Source: a virus
Virus record (IMG/VR): IMGVR_UViG_3300021132_000004
Location: 1-39,352 of that record
Length of the DNA stretch: 39,352 nt
Reading direction: 5' to 3' (one strand)
The number at the start of each line of letters is the position of its first letter. Within the stretch, counting starts at the first letter, position 1. The position numbers and the translations under genes are program-made. The notes beneath the pieces are model-generated. The model did not search any database. It saw only the letters and a program-made list of their open reading frames with translations, and was not told the origin of the DNA. Of this stretch, positions 31,398-39,322 are shown one piece after another.

Positions 31398-31905
31398 GAA
31401 GTGCCTAATGTGTACAGCTTCTTTTATTCCTTCCCAACCTTTGCAGGTAGTTTGTTCGGCATCCTGCGCCCTTGAATTTCACCGACAAAAACAATGGAAA
31501 AAGGAAGCAAAAAAAATGAAGGAAAAGCTAATGACACATAAGGACTACCTAAAGATTTTGCAGGTAGTTTTCAACACTTACATCCGAATGAGGGATAAAG
31601 ATAAGCCATGTATATCCTGCGGATGCGATATGAAAAATAGGAAAGGAGATGCCTCCCACTTTTACTCGGTGGGGAGTAATCCTTCCCTTAGGTTTGATGA
31701 GGATAACGTTCATCTATCTTGCGTGCCTTGCAACCAGTACCTACATGGTAATTTACTTGAGTATGCCGAACGTTTGCCCCTTCGCATAGGTGCTTACAGG
31801 TTCGACCAACTTAAATCCCGAAAATCGACAATAAATAAGCTTACCATCCCCGAAATTCAAGACTTAATTAAACTTTATAAAATAAAAAACAATGACTTAC
31901 GATGA
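31375..31905 (+). CDS. ninG: NinG-like recombination nuclease
   Basis: The 176-residue protein has an N-terminal zinc motif (C10, C13, C27, C31) and a central CISCG (C79, C82) followed by GDASHFYSVGSNPSLRFDED and HLSCVPCNQYLHGN with C116, C119 and H124. This is the NinG/Rap pattern, an endonuclease acting on branched recombination intermediates. It overlaps both neighbours by 14-23 nt and belongs to the recombination group. Confidence 0.9.
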   Translation: MEKIRKPKKCLMCTASFIPSQPLQVVCSASCALEFHRQKQWKKEAKKMKEKLMTHKDYLKILQVVFNTYIRMRDKDKPCISCGCDMKNRKGDASHFYSVGSNPSLRFDEDNVHLSCVPCNQYLHGNLLEYAERLPLRIGAYRFDQLKSRKSTINKLTIPEIQDLIKLYKIKNNDLR

Positions 31906-34045
31906 ATTTTTACTAACAAAACAAAAAACACACGTTGAAAGTGGATTTGTCCCTCAAACATTAAACCCTAATTTATTCGATTTTCAGAGGTTTATTGTAT
32001 TAAGGGCATTAAAAGCCGGGAAGTATGCAATTTTCGCAGATTGTGGACTTGGTAAAACTTTGATGCAATTATCTTGGGCGCAAGAAGTAACGAAGCATAC
32101 CAATAAGCCAGTATTGATTTTAGCTCCATTAGCTGTTGTGGGACAAACAAAGCAAGAAGCTGTTAAGTTTGGTATTGATACTTCTTTGCTCGAATTTAGT
32201 AACTATGAACAACTTGATAACATCGACTGCTCTAAATTTTCGGGAGTTGTTCTGGATGAATCAGGAATTTTGAAAAACTTTCAAGGCGCAACTAAATCAT
32301 TAATAATTGAAAGGTTTAAATCAACGCCTTATAAATTAGCTTGTACAGCTACTCCAAGCCCAAACGACCCAATGGAGATGGGTAATCATAGCGAATTTTT
32401 AGACGTTATGAGCCGTAATCAAATGTTGGCTATGTACTTTGTTCATGATGGCGGAAAAACTGCCAAATGGAGATTAAAAAGACACGCAATAAAATCATTT
32501 TATCAATTTATTGGAACGTGGGCAGTAATGCTTAATAAACCTGATGATATTGGATTCCACATGGAAGGGTATAATTTGCCTAAATTAAATCTTATTGAAC
32601 ATAAGATTGAAACCAATAAAAGGGATAATGGCCAACTATTTAATGATGCGATTATTTCAGCAACCAATTTCAACGCAGAGTTAAGGGCAACAAAAGAACA
32701 AAGGATGCAAAAAGTTGTTGATATTGTTAATTCAAAACCATGTGAAACATTTTTGATTTGGATAAAACAAAATGAGGAAGGTGAAATGTTACGTAAAATG
32801 ATACCTAATGCTATTGAAGTAGCAGGAAGTCATTCTAATGAATACAAAGAAAAATACTTGCTTGGATTTGCTAATGGCGACTTTCCTATTTTAATTTCAA
32901 AAACAAAGATTGCTTCATTTGGTATGAACTACCAAAATTGCCACAATCAAATATTTGCTTCATTAGATTTTAGTTTTGAAGCCCTTTACCAAGCAATAAG
33001 AAGGTCATATAGGTTTGGGCAAAAAAATGAAGTAAACATACATTTGATTACTACCGACACAATGGAAAATGTTAAACAATCACTAGACAACAAACAAAAA
33101 CAATTTGAAATTATGCAGAACGAAATGGCATCAACAATTAATGAAAATTTAAACAAAAGTATGATTACTTCTATTATTGACACACAAGAAGAATCAAATG
33201 AATGGTTTAATGTACAAAGAGGAGATTGCGTACAATTGATTCATAATATTCCTAATGAAACAATTGGATTATCTGTATTTTCACCTCCATTTGCTGAATT
33301 ATACACATATAGCAGCCATGTTGAAGATATGGGTAATTCTAAAGATTATAATGAGTTTTTAACTCAATTCGGATTCTTAATAAAAGAATTACATAGAGTA
33401 ATGATTTCAGGGCGTAATGTTGCAGTTCATTGCATGGATTTACCTATTCAAAAAGGAAAAGAAGGATTTATTGGTTTAAGAGATTTTAGCGGAATGATTC
33501 TTAGTGCATTTCAAGATGCAGGATTTATTTATGCTAGTAGAGTAACAATTTGGAAAGACCCTGTAATTGAAATGCAAAGAACAAAAGCATTAGGATTGCT
33601 GCATAAACAAGTAAAAAAAGATAGCACAATGAGCAGAGTTGGTATTCCTGACTATGTAATGATTTTTAGGAAAGATGGGGAAAGAACTCAGCCTGTAACT
33701 AATACTAACCTACCAGTAGATTTATGGCAGAAATATGCTTCTCCAGTTTGGATGGATATTGATTATGGAAACACTTTGCAAGGATTTAGAAATGCAAGAG
33801 ATGAAAAAGATGAAAAGCATATATGCCCATTGCAGTTGGATACTATTGAAAGATTAATTCATTTGTATTCCAATAAAGGAGATACTGTATTTACTCCATT
33901 TATGGGGATTGGCAGTGAAGTTTTTCAAGCCGTAAAAATGGGTCGAAAAGGAGTAGGATTTGAGCTAAAAGAAAGCTACTTTGAATTAGCAAAAAAGAAT
34001 ATAAGCGCAGCAGTAGAACAAAAAAAACAAATAACTTTATTTTAA
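31892..34045 (+). CDS. SNF2-like helicase fused to a DNA methyltransferase
   Basis: Residues 1-400 are a superfamily 2 helicase: GLGKT (52-56), LDESG (121-125), TATP (152-155) and motif VI QAIRRSYRFGQ (367-377). Residues 435-710 are an amino-methyltransferase of beta order: the catalytic motif SPPF (464-467) comes before the SAM motif FTPFMGIGS (667-675). Such fusions protect phage DNA by base modification and occur in Bacteroidota phages. No separate restriction nuclease is present. The gene is intact; codon use from about 32,000 on is more AT-rich than its neighbours, a possible sign of transfer. Confidence 0.88.
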   Translation: MTYDEFLLTKQKTHVESGFVPQTLNPNLFDFQRFIVLRALKAGKYAIFADCGLGKTLMQLSWAQEVTKHTNKPVLILAPLAVVGQTKQEAVKFGIDTSLLEFSNYEQLDNIDCSKFSGVVLDESGILKNFQGATKSLIIERFKSTPYKLACTATPSPNDPMEMGNHSEFLDVMSRNQMLAMYFVHDGGKTAKWRLKRHAIKSFYQFIGTWAVMLNKPDDIGFHMEGYNLPKLNLIEHKIETNKRDNGQLFNDAIISATNFNAELRATKEQRMQKVVDIVNSKPCETFLIWIKQNEEGEMLRKMIPNAIEVAGSHSNEYKEKYLLGFANGDFPILISKTKIASFGMNYQNCHNQIFASLDFSFEALYQAIRRSYRFGQKNEVNIHLITTDTMENVKQSLDNKQKQFEIMQNEMASTINENLNKSMITSIIDTQEESNEWFNVQRGDCVQLIHNIPNETIGLSVFSPPFAELYTYSSHVEDMGNSKDYNEFLTQFGFLIKELHRVMISGRNVAVHCMDLPIQKGKEGFIGLRDFSGMILSAFQDAGFIYASRVTIWKDPVIEMQRTKALGLLHKQVKKDSTMSRVGIPDYVMIFRKDGERTQPVTNTNLPVDLWQKYASPVWMDIDYGNTLQGFRNARDEKDEKHICPLQLDTIERLIHLYSNKGDTVFTPFMGIGSEVFQAVKMGRKGVGFELKESYFELAKKNISAAVEQKKQITLF

Positions 34046-34059
34046 GTAATTAATATTAC

Positions 34060-34067
34060 TATATTTG
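34060..34067 (+). promoter_or_regulatory. -7 box TATATTTG before the initiator leader
   Basis: TATATTTG fits TAnnTTTG exactly and lies 15 bases after the stop of the helicase-methyltransferase gene. Transcription from it would begin at about 34072, the first base of the pseudoknot-forming leader. Confidence 0.6.
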
Positions 34068-34069
34068 CA

Positions 34070-34099
34070 ATGCTTAGTCCGAATGAAAACACTAAATAA
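34070..34099 (+). other. Nine-codon leader ORF overlapping pseudoknot stem 1
   Basis: ATG CTT AGT CCG and six further codons to TAA encode MLSPNENTK. The ORF covers the whole 5' strand of stem 1, so translating ribosomes would prevent that stem from forming. Its ATG lies only two bases after the -7 box, so it may fall just outside the transcript; in that case it is meaningless unless the transcript starts upstream. Confidence 0.3.
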
Positions 34100-34165
34100 A
34101 TCCTACGCTTTACATTGCCTATTAACCCTTTCGGGTTGTCGGACTAAGCCTTTGTACTGCGTAGG
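34072..34165 (+). promoter_or_regulatory. Pseudoknot-capable RNA leader upstream of the initiator gene
   Basis: GCTTAGTCCGA (34072-34082) is perfectly complementary to TCGGACTAAGC (34139-34149). CCTACGC (34102-34108) is perfectly complementary to GCGTAGG (34159-34165). The two stems interleave, which makes an H-type pseudoknot. A third hairpin, AACCC/GGGTT with loop TTTC (34124-34137), sits inside. The structure ends 12 nt before the ATG at 34178 and starts where a transcript from the 34060 box would begin. It is a likely control element for the initiator gene; I know no matching RNA family. Confidence 0.6.
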
Positions 34166-34177
34166 TATTTTATTTTA

Positions 34178-34981
34178 ATGGCTAAAGAAACATTTTATTT
34201 CAGCCACGACTACGGGGCAAGGAATGACCCTAAACTCATCAAACTTTTAATGAAACTTGGACAAGAAGGTAAGGGCATATACTGGGACTTGGTCGAGATG
34301 CTTTACGAGCAAAATGGCTACCTTGACTTACACGAATGCGAAAGCATTGCGTTCGCATTGCGAACGGATTGCGATAAACTCAAAAGCGTATTAAAAGATT
34401 TCGATTTATTTGTCAATGATGGTAATTATTTTTATTCTCAAAGCGTTTTAAATCGACTTGCCCAAAGGTCGGAGAAGTCCCATCAAGCAACATTAGCCGC
34501 GTATCAAAGATGGAATAAAAAAGTAAAACCATCTAATATTCAGGAAGTTACAATAAATGAAGGATGCGAACGCAATGCGGACGCAGTGCAAACGGAAAGC
34601 GAACGCAATGCGGATGGTATGCTAGTAAAGGAAAGTAAAGTAAAGGAAAGTAAAGTAAAGGAAAGTAAAGTAAAGGAAAGTAAAGTAAATAAACATCCCT
34701 ATCGGGATAATGTATTTTTGTCGGAGGAGGAATATTTAAAATTAAGGGAGAATTACTTAGAACCTGAATTGAATGATATGCTCGACAACCTAAGCAACTA
34801 CCAACACTCTAAAGGCACAAAGTACAAAAGCCATTATCACACAATTTTAAATTGGTTTAAAAAAGAAAACAAAACAACACAAAAAAATGGAAAACAAACA
34901 TTTACAAACGAACAACAACGCATTAGGGCCGAACGTGAGGAATTTAGCAACGCTTTTAGAGCGATGCTCAATCGAGAGTAA
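34178..34981 (+). CDS. DUF4373-type replication protein with internal repeats
   Basis: Residues 1-95 (FYFSHDYGARNDPKLIKLLM, then GIYWDLVEMLYEQNGYL) match the Lin1244/Lin1753-like DUF4373 N-terminal domain, a winged-helix found in phage replication initiators. Residues 150-168 are a KESKV repeat encoded by four exact 15-nt units. The C-terminal half has YLKLRENYLEPELNDMLDNL and a basic end (EQQRIRAEREEF). It probably recruits the replisome at an origin inside its own gene, like lambda O. The following gene overlaps its end by 95 nt. Confidence 0.78.
   Translation: MAKETFYFSHDYGARNDPKLIKLLMKLGQEGKGIYWDLVEMLYEQNGYLDLHECESIAFALRTDCDKLKSVLKDFDLFVNDGNYFYSQSVLNRLAQRSEKSHQATLAAYQRWNKKVKPSNIQEVTINEGCERNADAVQTESERNADGMLVKESKVKESKVKESKVKESKVNKHPYRDNVFLSEEEYLKLRENYLEPELNDMLDNLSNYQHSKGTKYKSHYHTILNWFKKENKTTQKNGKQTFTNEQQRIRAEREEFSNAFRAMLNRE
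34566..34614 (+). repeat. Two 16-nt direct repeats GCGAACGCAATGCGGA
   Basis: Copies at 34566-34581 and 34599-34614 are identical and encode ERNADAV and ERNADGM. Their first 13 bases are the reverse complement of 34344-34356. Confidence 0.85.
34625..34684 (+). repeat. Four 15-nt tandem units GTAAAGGAAAGTAAA
   Basis: Four exact units run without interruption and a partial fifth (GTAAAT) follows. They are A-rich and in frame, encoding KESKV four times. They resemble iterons or an AT-rich unwinding segment. Confidence 0.9.
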
Positions 34982-35941: not shown

Positions 35942-35952
35942 ACTAATTGAAT

Positions 35953-36444
35953 ATGAAATACTTAATAGAACAAAGCACAATACAAAAGTTACTAAATAGT
36001 TATGATGTTTTTGAGATGTCGGGAGAGGTTAATTCAGTACAACAACTGCAAATTCAATCGAAACGGGAGGTACTTAATTACATTGTTAACAACTCAAAGC
36101 ACGTAACAGACGACAAAGACTTGGAAGCATTACAGGTGAGTGCGAAATATGAACTTACCTATTTGTTAGACAAAGTAAGCCAATACACTGGAGTAAGCCC
36201 GAATGATATTCGAGGTAAAGAAAGGAAGGCGGAGATTATCTTTGCTAGGCATTTATTTTGTTATTGTGCCGATAAGTATGGTTACAATCCTAAAAATGCT
36301 TTGATTACCTTAAAATACATTGGGGACTTTGTTAATAAAGACCATGCAACTATTATCTTCTCGAAGCGACAAATAAAGGAAGCCATCGATGTAAAGGATT
36401 CGAGGGGTATTCAAGCAATAAAGTTCATTAATACGTTGGTATAA
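35953..36444 (+). CDS. DnaA domain IV-like DNA-binding protein
   Basis: I start at the ATG of 35953, as an upstream TTG adds only two residues. In the 163-residue product, residues 75-145 match the DnaA C-terminal DNA-binding domain: VSQYTGVSPNDIRGKERKAE, then RHLFCYCADKYGYN and FVNKDHATIIFSKRQIKEAI, the last being the DnaA-box contact motif. There is no AAA+ domain. It may bind DnaA-box-like sites to compete with or replace host DnaA at the phage origin, or act as a repressor. Confidence 0.82.
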   Translation: MKYLIEQSTIQKLLNSYDVFEMSGEVNSVQQLQIQSKREVLNYIVNNSKHVTDDKDLEALQVSAKYELTYLLDKVSQYTGVSPNDIRGKERKAEIIFARHLFCYCADKYGYNPKNALITLKYIGDFVNKDHATIIFSKRQIKEAIDVKDSRGIQAIKFINTLV

Positions 36445-36861: not shown

Positions 36862-37602
36862 ATGGAAACTAAAAAAGGAGTAAAAGCGTTCAAAAAAGGA
36901 CTTATTTGTCGAGATTACCAATTCAAAGAAAATGAAATTTTTGAAACAGACGAGGTGAAAGTCTGCGAAAAAGGATTCCATTATTGCGAGAATCCGCTCG
37001 ATGTTTTGGATTATTACGATTTATGCGATACGGAATTTGCAGAGGTCGAGGACATGGGAGTAACACAAGTAGATGGCAATAAGTCAGCAACAACTAAAAT
37101 CAAAATAGGGGAAAAATTAGACCTTAAAGGATTTATTAAGTTAGCCGTTGATTTTCTATTTGACAATGTTAAATTAACTGGTAATATAGAATTAGGCGAC
37201 TACTCGCAGGTCGCAACATCAGGCGACAACTCGCGGGTAGTAACATCAGGCAACCACTCGCGGGTAGCAACATCAGGCTACCACTCGCAGGTCGCAACAT
37301 CAGGCGACAACTCGCAGGTAGTAACATCAGGCAACCACTCGCAGGTCGCAACATCAGGCGACAACTCGAAGGTCGCAACATCAGGCGACAACTCGAAGGT
37401 AGCTATTGAGGGTAAAGATTCCGTTGCTGCCAACATTGGAATAAAAGGACAAATTAAAGGGGTAATAGGTACTTGGATTACTTTGGCTGAATATGATTCC
37501 GACAATAAAATCATATTCGTTAAATCAGCTAAAATTGATGGCAAAAGACTAAAAGAAAACACATGGTATAAACTAGAAAATAACAAATTTAAAGAAATCT
37601 AA
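36862..37602 (+). CDS. DUF7666-like protein with nonapeptide beta-helix-like repeats
   Basis: Residues 1-105 (KGVKAFKKGLICRDYQFKEN, then KVCEKGFHYCENPLDVLDYY) match the DUF7666 domain as I know it from gut phages. Residues 112-183 consist of eight 9-residue repeats of the form G(D/N)(N/H)S.V(A/V)TS, likely a small solenoid. The C-terminus is a beta domain (GVIGTWITLAEYDSDNKIIF). Each repeat is 27 nt with high identity, so copy number can change by slippage or recombination. Function is unknown; surface exposure or binding is possible. Confidence 0.8.
   Translation: METKKGVKAFKKGLICRDYQFKENEIFETDEVKVCEKGFHYCENPLDVLDYYDLCDTEFAEVEDMGVTQVDGNKSATTKIKIGEKLDLKGFIKLAVDFLFDNVKLTGNIELGDYSQVATSGDNSRVVTSGNHSRVATSGYHSQVATSGDNSQVVTSGNHSQVATSGDNSKVATSGDNSKVAIEGKDSVAANIGIKGQIKGVIGTWITLAEYDSDNKIIFVKSAKIDGKRLKENTWYKLENNKFKEI
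37195..37410 (+). repeat. Eight 27-nt tandem repeats in the DUF7666-like gene
   Basis: The units encode G-x-x-S-x-V-x-T-S and differ by a few bases, mostly at codons 2, 3, 6 and 8 (GAC AAC / AAC CAC / TAC CAC; CGG / CAG / AAG). Shuffled variants suggest recombination between units. They are not CRISPR repeats: there are no spacers. Confidence 0.92.
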
Positions 37603-38237: not shown

Positions 38238-38789
38238 ATGAGAGAACTACTAATTAAATTAAATGCTTGTGAAGAAGCTAAAAAATGGGCAGGAGACAAA
38301 TCTTGGGAAGAGGTATACAACACCTGCCATAGAGGAGATTGGTTGTTGTGGTTGCATAATAGAACTAATAAAGAAGATGTGCAAGTTAGAACCTTGGCCA
38401 AGGGTCATTGTGCCAATACAGTAAGGCACCTTATGGAGTACAAAATAAGTTTAGTAGCAGTTGATACAGCTATAGCATTCGGTGAAGGCCGGGCAACAAG
38501 GGATGAATTAGATGATGTTGCTTATGATGCTGCTTATACTGCTGAATTTGCTGCTGCTTCTACTTATGCTACTTATGCAGCGGCTAATGCTGCTGCTTTT
38601 GCTGCTGCTAATAATACTGCTGCTAATAATACTGCTGATACTCGTGCTGCTTATGCAGCGGCTGCTGCTTATCGTGTTGCTGCGGAAAAAATAAAAAACC
38701 AAAAAGACACAGCCGATATTGTACGCAAGTATATTCCTATCGAACTATGGAATACACAAAAAATGATTGATGAATTAAAAACCAAATAA
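38238..38789 (+). CDS. Alanine-rich paralog X, Imm-5-like family
   Basis: The 183-residue protein has the conserved N-terminal domain (CHRGDWLLWL, TLAKGHCANTVRHLM, AIAFGEGRATR), a GCT-rich variable part (about residues 94-150, with ANNTAANNTADTR) and the C-terminal KIKNQKDTADIVRKYIPIEL. Bases 38598-38722 are identical to the first 125 bases of the window. It is the first full member of the array and follows the coiled-coil gene by 6 nt. Confidence 0.85.
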   Translation: MRELLIKLNACEEAKKWAGDKSWEEVYNTCHRGDWLLWLHNRTNKEDVQVRTLAKGHCANTVRHLMEYKISLVAVDTAIAFGEGRATRDELDDVAYDAAYTAEFAAASTYATYAAANAAAFAAANNTAANNTADTRAAYAAAAAYRVAAEKIKNQKDTADIVRKYIPIELWNTQKMIDELKTK

Positions 38790-38800
38790 ATCTAAGAAAA

Positions 38801-39322
38801 ATGAAAGAACTATTAATTAAACTAAAAACGTGTCAAAAAGCCTTAGAATGGGTAGGTGATAAGACATGGGAAGAGATTTATAAAACTTGCCACAGAGGCG
38901 ATTGGTTACTTTGGTTGCATTACAGAACAAACAAAAAAGATTTAAAACTAAGAACATTGGCTAAAGGGCATTGCGCCAATACCGTAAGATACCTAATGAA
39001 GGATAAAAGAAGCCTAAAAGCGGTTGATACTGCAATTGCATATGGTGAGGGGAGGGCGACACGCGCAGAACTAGATTCTGTTTGTGCTGCTGCTGCTGCT
39101 GCTGGTGATGCTGATGATGCTTATGTTGCTGTTTATGCTGCTTATGCTGCTTATTCTGCTGCTGCTTATGATGCTGTTAATGCTTCTGTTTATGCTGCTT
39201 ATGCTTCGGATGCAAAAATCAAAAATCAACAAGAAACAGCAGATATTGTACGCAAGTATATTCCTATCGAACTATGGAATACACAAAAAATGATTGACAA
39301 ACTTAAAAACCAAATAATCTAA
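38801..39322 (+). CDS. Alanine-rich paralog Y, Imm-5-like family
   Basis: The 173-residue protein has the same layout (CHRGDWLLWL, TLAKGHCANTVRYLM, then YAAYAAYSAAAYDAVNASV). The last 80 bases through the window end (39273-39352) are identical to 794-873, covering the 3' end of paralog B, the intergenic segment and the start of paralog C. Thus Y occupies the same place before C as B does. Its variable part differs completely from that of B. It may be an allele of B or a separate copy in a longer array. Confidence 0.85.
   Translation: MKELLIKLKTCQKALEWVGDKTWEEIYKTCHRGDWLLWLHYRTNKKDLKLRTLAKGHCANTVRYLMKDKRSLKAVDTAIAYGEGRATRAELDSVCAAAAAAGDADDAYVAVYAAYAAYSAAAYDAVNASVYAAYASDAKIKNQQETADIVRKYIPIELWNTQKMIDKLKNQII

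Follow-up and report, generated by a model that had tools for sequence, protein, structure and literature searches.

The window analysed here is a 39,352-nt stretch of viral DNA (positions 1 to 39,352 of IMG/VR record IMGVR_UViG_3300021132_000004), in which a replication initiation gene (rep) of the Lin1244_N/phrog_2562 type lies downstream of a helicase-methylase gene (31892-34045). The leader between the two genes is laid out in Table 1. In contigs L512-L513 a helicase-methylase protein 100% identical to that of the window is followed, immediately after its stop, by an unrelated gene; since both leader and rep are missing there, the module appears to have been exchanged at this boundary. Within rep itself, tandem GGAAAGTAAAGTAAA repeats (34620-34690) code for KESKV repeats and could be origin iterons. 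Further downstream are a small protein with a DnaA C-terminal DNA-binding domain (Bac_DnaA_C, 35947-36444), encoded shortly downstream of a DUF3127 ssDNA-binding-like gene, a DUF7666 protein with GDNSxVATSG-type repeats (36862-37602), and two related tandem proteins with Ala/Tyr-rich low-complexity stretches (38238-38789 and 38801-39322).

Table 1. Features of the leader in the window, and related leaders in cultured Flavobacterium phages (positions in the records named).
Feature	Position	Strand	Remarks
-7 box TATATTTG	34060..34067	+	Bacteroidota-type promoter, TAnnTTTG; scan matches depend on this motif
Stem 1, 5' strand GCTTAGTCCGA	34072-34082	+	Exact complement of 34139-34149; predicted transcript start
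Leader ORF MKTLNKSYALHCLLTLSGCRTKPLYCVGILF	34083..34178	+	31 codons; TAA stop overlaps rep ATG
Stem 2a, 5' strand CCTACGC	34102-34108	+	7 pairs with 34159-34165
Stem 2b, 5' strand TACA	34111-34114	+	Pairs with TGTA 34153-34156, behind a 2x2 internal loop
UUGCC motif	34115..34119	+	Conserved; unpaired in the model
Hairpin H3, TAACCC-TTTC-GGGTTG	34123..34138	+	Abuts stem 1'; a different hairpin in the same place in four relatives
Stem 1, 3' strand TCGGACTAAGC	34139-34149	+	11 Watson-Crick pairs with 34072-34082
CUU linker (34150-34152) and stem 2b, 3' strand TGTA (34153-34156)	34150..34156	+	
Stem 2a, 3' strand GCGTAGG	34159-34165	+	Pairs with 34102-34108
U-rich tract TATTTTATTTTA	34166..34177	+	From stem 2' to the rep start; possible terminator tail
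rep gene	34178..34981	+	Lin1244_N / phrog_2562 replication initiation protein
Leader in FCV-1 (KY979235)	35886		Class II
Leaders in snusmum6-2 (MN812235)	9728, 13667, 14705		Class II; three in one isolate
Leader in FCOV-F14 (MT585281)	37579		Class II

A preliminary description of this DNA had proposed a pseudoknot leader made of an 11-bp and a 7-bp perfect stem with strands in the order 1-2-1'-2', and both stems proved exact at 34072-34165, as did the GC hairpin with a TTTC loop (AACCC-TTTC-GGGTT, 34124-34137) and the 12-nt gap that separates stem 2' from the rep ATG. The leader also begins, as had been proposed, at the expected transcript start: TATATTTG, a match to the TAnnTTTG consensus of the -7 element of Bacteroidota promoters (PMC7366714), has its first base 12 nt ahead of stem 1, which therefore lies within 1-2 nt of the predicted start. 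Each stem-1 strand occurs once in the window. Stem 2 has an extension, stem 2b, that the preliminary description lacked; the corresponding duplex with its internal loop is predicted in the window and in L581, L553 and L580, and a similar one in L586. The segment formed by the CUU linker and stem 2b, together with the end of S1', makes up a GCCUUUG motif. Stem 2, with its long loop, is followed by the tail TATTTTATTTT; it would make only a moderate terminator.

The leader ORF had likewise been overlooked. Its ATG directly follows stem 1. Given the predicted transcript start, its 5' UTR would consist of little more than the 5' strand of stem 1, and stem 1 covers the region where ribosomes would enter. 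The ORF contains stem 1' as well as stem 2 with both its strands, and ends in a stop/start overlap with rep (TTTTAATGG).

We determined whether the pairing exceeds what chance would give in such sequence. The crossing stems of the leader have an energy of -37.1 kcal/mol, a value that 3000 dinucleotide shuffles (mean -20.9, sd 2.8) and the 1113 other 140-nt segments of the window all failed to reach, and no shuffle or segment matched the stem pair. A chance origin of the stems was thereby ruled out, in agreement with the earlier claim that perfect pairing here is improbable by accident. In a search of both strands of the window for crossing stems that have a T-rich tail and then an ATG behind them, the leader was the best site, the second best (-31.7) being on the other strand; folded without pseudoknots, the region gave z = -3.3. 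Scans against Rfam 15 returned no family match at gathering level.

A covariation search in related phages had been suggested as a check, and compensating changes do exist in relatives defined by motif. We used a pattern that asks for no pairing (promoter, GC, ATGAAA, GCCTTTG), although the window-type loci had first been spotted via their stems. In 50 viral records this pattern gave three sites (L595, L596 and L597), and its backwards control gave none. All five window-type members, i.e. these three sites, the window and L553, have 9-11 consecutive stem-1 pairs. As a negative control, the same pattern gave 21 distinct chance matches in about 740 bacterial genomes, in which stem 1 was absent (typically 2-4 pairs, maximum 7). 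A search by the motifs and stem 2 alone recovered the same five members, all with stem 1, alongside four other distinct matches with 2-5 pairs and one with 8 pairs that was an artefact of overlapping motifs. Two further motif scans, covering about 100 viral records, gave one match (L619) and recovered no new member.

Because sequence-based alignment misaligns the variable stems, pairs were counted on a structural alignment. At stem-1 pairs 3-11, nine of the eleven, both sides have changed across the five members, with G-U pairs allowed, and in the five the pairing of the stem 2 arms far exceeds that of shuffled arms. Hairpin H3 reaches significance in the window, L581, L553 and L580 and weak in L586, and (U/A)UGCC is present in all of these loci. 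UUGCC and GCCUUUG sit in different frames of the leader ORF among members, which indicates that they are kept as RNA. We regard a pseudoknotted mRNA leader, lying at the transcript start before rep and under selection, as confirmed.

The architecture extends beyond relatives recognisable by sequence. Upstream regions were compared for 105 non-redundant loci encoding Lin1244-type proteins, and about one third had crossing stems at z < -2.8 (best -11.5); in the remainder z was centred near 0, and those inspected mostly lay directly behind another gene and had no promoter motif. About thirty leaders with crossing stems were found ahead of other Lin1244-type rep genes, unrelated to one another in sequence and sharing one layout (promoter, S1, S2, S1', S2', T-run, rep ATG). 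They fall into two classes. Class I has a leader ATG after S1 (the window, L025, L026, L071, L155, L215, L252, L266, L272, L311 and others). Class II (L002/L005, L158, L169, L174, L213, L378 and others) has no leader ORF, and carries S1 in a hairpin loop of about 7-8 nt that is complementary to a second loop, that of a terminator-like hairpin ahead of rep, i.e. a loop-loop kissing interaction; a G+C-rich stem with a U-run, as in a terminator, is clear in L169 and L378. In an alignment of 11 class II sequences (A7), both sides had changed in 9 of 32 pairs, including 4 of the 8 loop-loop pairs; double-change cells numbered 24 vs 6.5 +- 2.1 in shuffles, and the signal collapsed with slid partners.

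In L215, L224, L311 and L160 the 5' strand of S1 is repeated directly before the rep ATG (CAGTCACA in L215, CAACACGCA in L224), which gives S1' two possible partners, one at the leader start and one at the rep start. L042, L263 and L300 belong to another type of leader, whose peptide starts with a conserved MGVKG[FL]HVT and whose crossing stems are weaker; they contain CACGTT/AACGTG segments, with AACGTG repeated before the rep ATG.

Is the leader ORF a regular part of class I? In nine of the 15 structure-only matches with S1 near the start site, an ATG lay between -2 and +3 nt from the end of S1, where 0.97 such cases were expected. Of 23 class I leaders, 20 keep the leader frame free of stops as far as the end of S1', as against 0/23 and 5/23 for the other frames (Fisher p = 6e-10); this list was partly picked by eye, and the stems and T-runs, a non-coding constraint, also shape these sequences. 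In the window, L025, L071, L252, L590, L580, L170, L026 and L570 the leader ends at a stop codon that overlaps or adjoins the next ATG, and in some other class I leaders the stop falls about 20-50 nt before that ATG or shortly past it; the leader ORF of L160 has 4 codons only. A finder that required an ATG after stem 1 gave 59 matches at an energy threshold of -18, compared with 42 and 33 in the controls, and 19 at -28, compared with 4 and 5. Since control matches were too many at weak energies, only strong or motif-defined members were used as evidence. Taken together, there is good support for the structure and its leader ORF.

The same kind of leader was also found ahead of other genes among the relatives of the upstream helicase gene. 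When all loci collected in the analysis were scanned for a promoter, crossing stems of -30 or below, a T-run and an ATG, 44 non-redundant matches were obtained, against 5 and 3 with control motifs. Automatic sorting placed 18 of them before rep genes and 26 before other frames, the latter including at least one Lin1244-like gene (L523) and a few with a trivial next frame. The non-rep neighbours identified include DUF6291, NUMOD4/HNH endonuclease and helicase-methylase genes, and the window's own motif subfamily likewise occurs ahead of non-rep genes. A restriction of these leaders to Lin1244 rep genes was accordingly dropped. Class II kissing-loop leaders are present, unannotated, in the records of cultured Flavobacterium phages (Table 1), and every one of these isolate elements has a stem-1 sequence of its own.

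How might such a leader act? We think it probable, with considerable reserve, that in the window it acts in cis as an attenuator of the phage's replication operon, with translation of the leader coupled to that of rep. From the structure, its selection and the open leader frame, all of which are shown above, we infer the following switch. In the ON state a ribosome would load at the leader AUG ahead of the synthesis of stem 1', which lies 56 nt downstream; as it translates it would pass through stems 1' and 2', holding both open, and it would then stop at UAAUG and restart on the overlapping rep AUG. In the OFF state no ribosome would arrive in time, stem 1 would close the leader start, and stem 2 and the U-rich tail would form 12 nt upstream of the rep AUG, so that rep initiation would be blocked and/or transcription ended. 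Stems 1 and 2 are mutually compatible rather than exclusive, and by anatomy the position of the ribosome would open both. The switch cannot be translation in class II, which has no leader ORF, and the class I leaders that stop short of the next gene count against one universal mechanism.

Leader-peptide attenuators provide a precedent in part: tetQ of Bacteroides, i.e. of the same phylum, is a translation attenuator with a leader peptide (PMC5418344), and there too a small ORF is present whose translation could decide the downstream structure. However, the known examples use alternative hairpins or drug-stalled ribosomes (PMC5418344), whereas in the window the strands cross as a pseudoknot, the peptide is unconserved and no drug link is known. 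The leader appears to be attenuator-type and to belong to an RNA family undescribed within the searchable literature and databases; our literature searches, for which subscription papers were mostly out of reach, found no description of such phage leaders. The STAXI motif, a candidate RNA in which a pseudoknot is repeated two or three times (PMC2864571), also lies near genes for DNA-handling proteins, but the pseudoknot of the window is single, is accompanied by a promoter and a leader ORF, and has no Rfam match.

A bolder reading, which we consider doubtful, is that these leaders make up a large and undescribed class of RNA regulators in phages, each with a private, hypervariable, self-complementary stem 1 as its address; in addition to cis gating, such an address might confer sequence-specific immunity or copy control in trans between co-infecting or resident phages. 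Slightly less likely again is that the leader works chiefly as a same-strand antisense RNA conferring immunity in trans, in the manner of the CI RNA of P4 or the C4 RNA of P1/P7. Stem 1' of a resident copy would then pair with stem 1 of an incoming copy and shut down its replication operon, and the specificity of the immunity would lie in the private stem-1 sequence. In satellite phage P4 a processed trans-acting RNA acts on repeated targets in a seqA-seqB-seqC arrangement (PMC4825925), and the window resembles it in having complementary segments within one transcript heading a phage replication operon; in P4 this arrangement is tied to premature termination. That the stem-1 sequence is private to each leader fits such a role, as does the S1 repeat before the rep ATG in four loci, which recalls seqA and seqC flanking seqB. 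However, the window offers a single target, S1 not being repeated near its leader, and it has a leader ORF and no Rfam match to C4; intramolecular pairing should beat pairing in trans; and the elements also precede genes that immunity need not target, with three in a single isolate.

The pseudoknot of I-complex plasmids reportedly activates initiator translation (Asano and Mizobuchi 1998). If the leader were of this RepY/RepZ type, translation of the leader peptide would permit a rep-promoting pseudoknot and an antisense RNA would oppose it, an arrangement that we rate as improbable here. There is a likeness in that the replication leaders of I-complex (IncI-alpha RepY/RepZ, IncB) and IncL/M plasmids (PMC10286972) also contain a pseudoknot and a short translated ORF coupled to the initiator gene, and in the window ORF and pseudoknot lie directly before that gene. 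Those leaders, however, are controlled by antisense RNA, whereas a consensus scan of 34041-34430 found no TAnnTTTG on the opposite strand, and over 33 leaders antisense TAnnTTTG was not enriched (6 vs 7.3 expected). Two further differences are that stem 1 of the window occupies the extreme 5' end, where it covers the leader start, and that the module is portable, being found ahead of non-initiator genes as well.

Equally improbable in our estimation is a leader that binds a ligand or a protein, whether as a riboswitch-like element or through autoregulation by Rep. The preliminary description had raised ligand sensing, which might apply to the window subfamily, where an unpaired UUGCC, and CUU after S1', are kept in the five members regardless of reading frame; positive support for a ligand is absent, the downstream genes differ (rep, helicase-methylase, NUMOD4/HNH and others), and the other leaders share no common motif and have no Rfam match. 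We give similarly little credence to a separate structured small RNA that has a promoter and a terminator to itself and only happens to lie before the gene. Class II, with a promoter and a terminator-like hairpin followed by a T-run, would suit this, but in class I the leader ORF crosses the structure and often overlaps the next gene, and the window has no strong terminator. The least credible reading, already offered in part by the preliminary description and not upheld, is a DNA element, i.e. a replication origin or an initiator-binding palindrome: the leader does adjoin the initiator gene, but the same architecture precedes unrelated genes, occurs in three copies in one isolate and keeps a fixed orientation relative to promoter and gene, and the unconserved stem sequences together with the tolerance of G-U pairs argue for RNA rather than DNA.

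A leader architecture of this kind, recurring with unrelated sequences before replication, helicase-methylase and endonuclease genes, would amount to a general control of early phage gene expression. Bacteroidota are dominant hosts in guts and many waters, and few RNA regulators are described for their phages. Because it is mainly the pairing of these leaders that is conserved, ordinary homology searches cannot see their architecture. The related elements in cultured Flavobacterium phages make the idea directly testable. Leaders of this design ahead of many early genes point to an undescribed family of RNA on/off gates in viruses that infect Bacteroidota.
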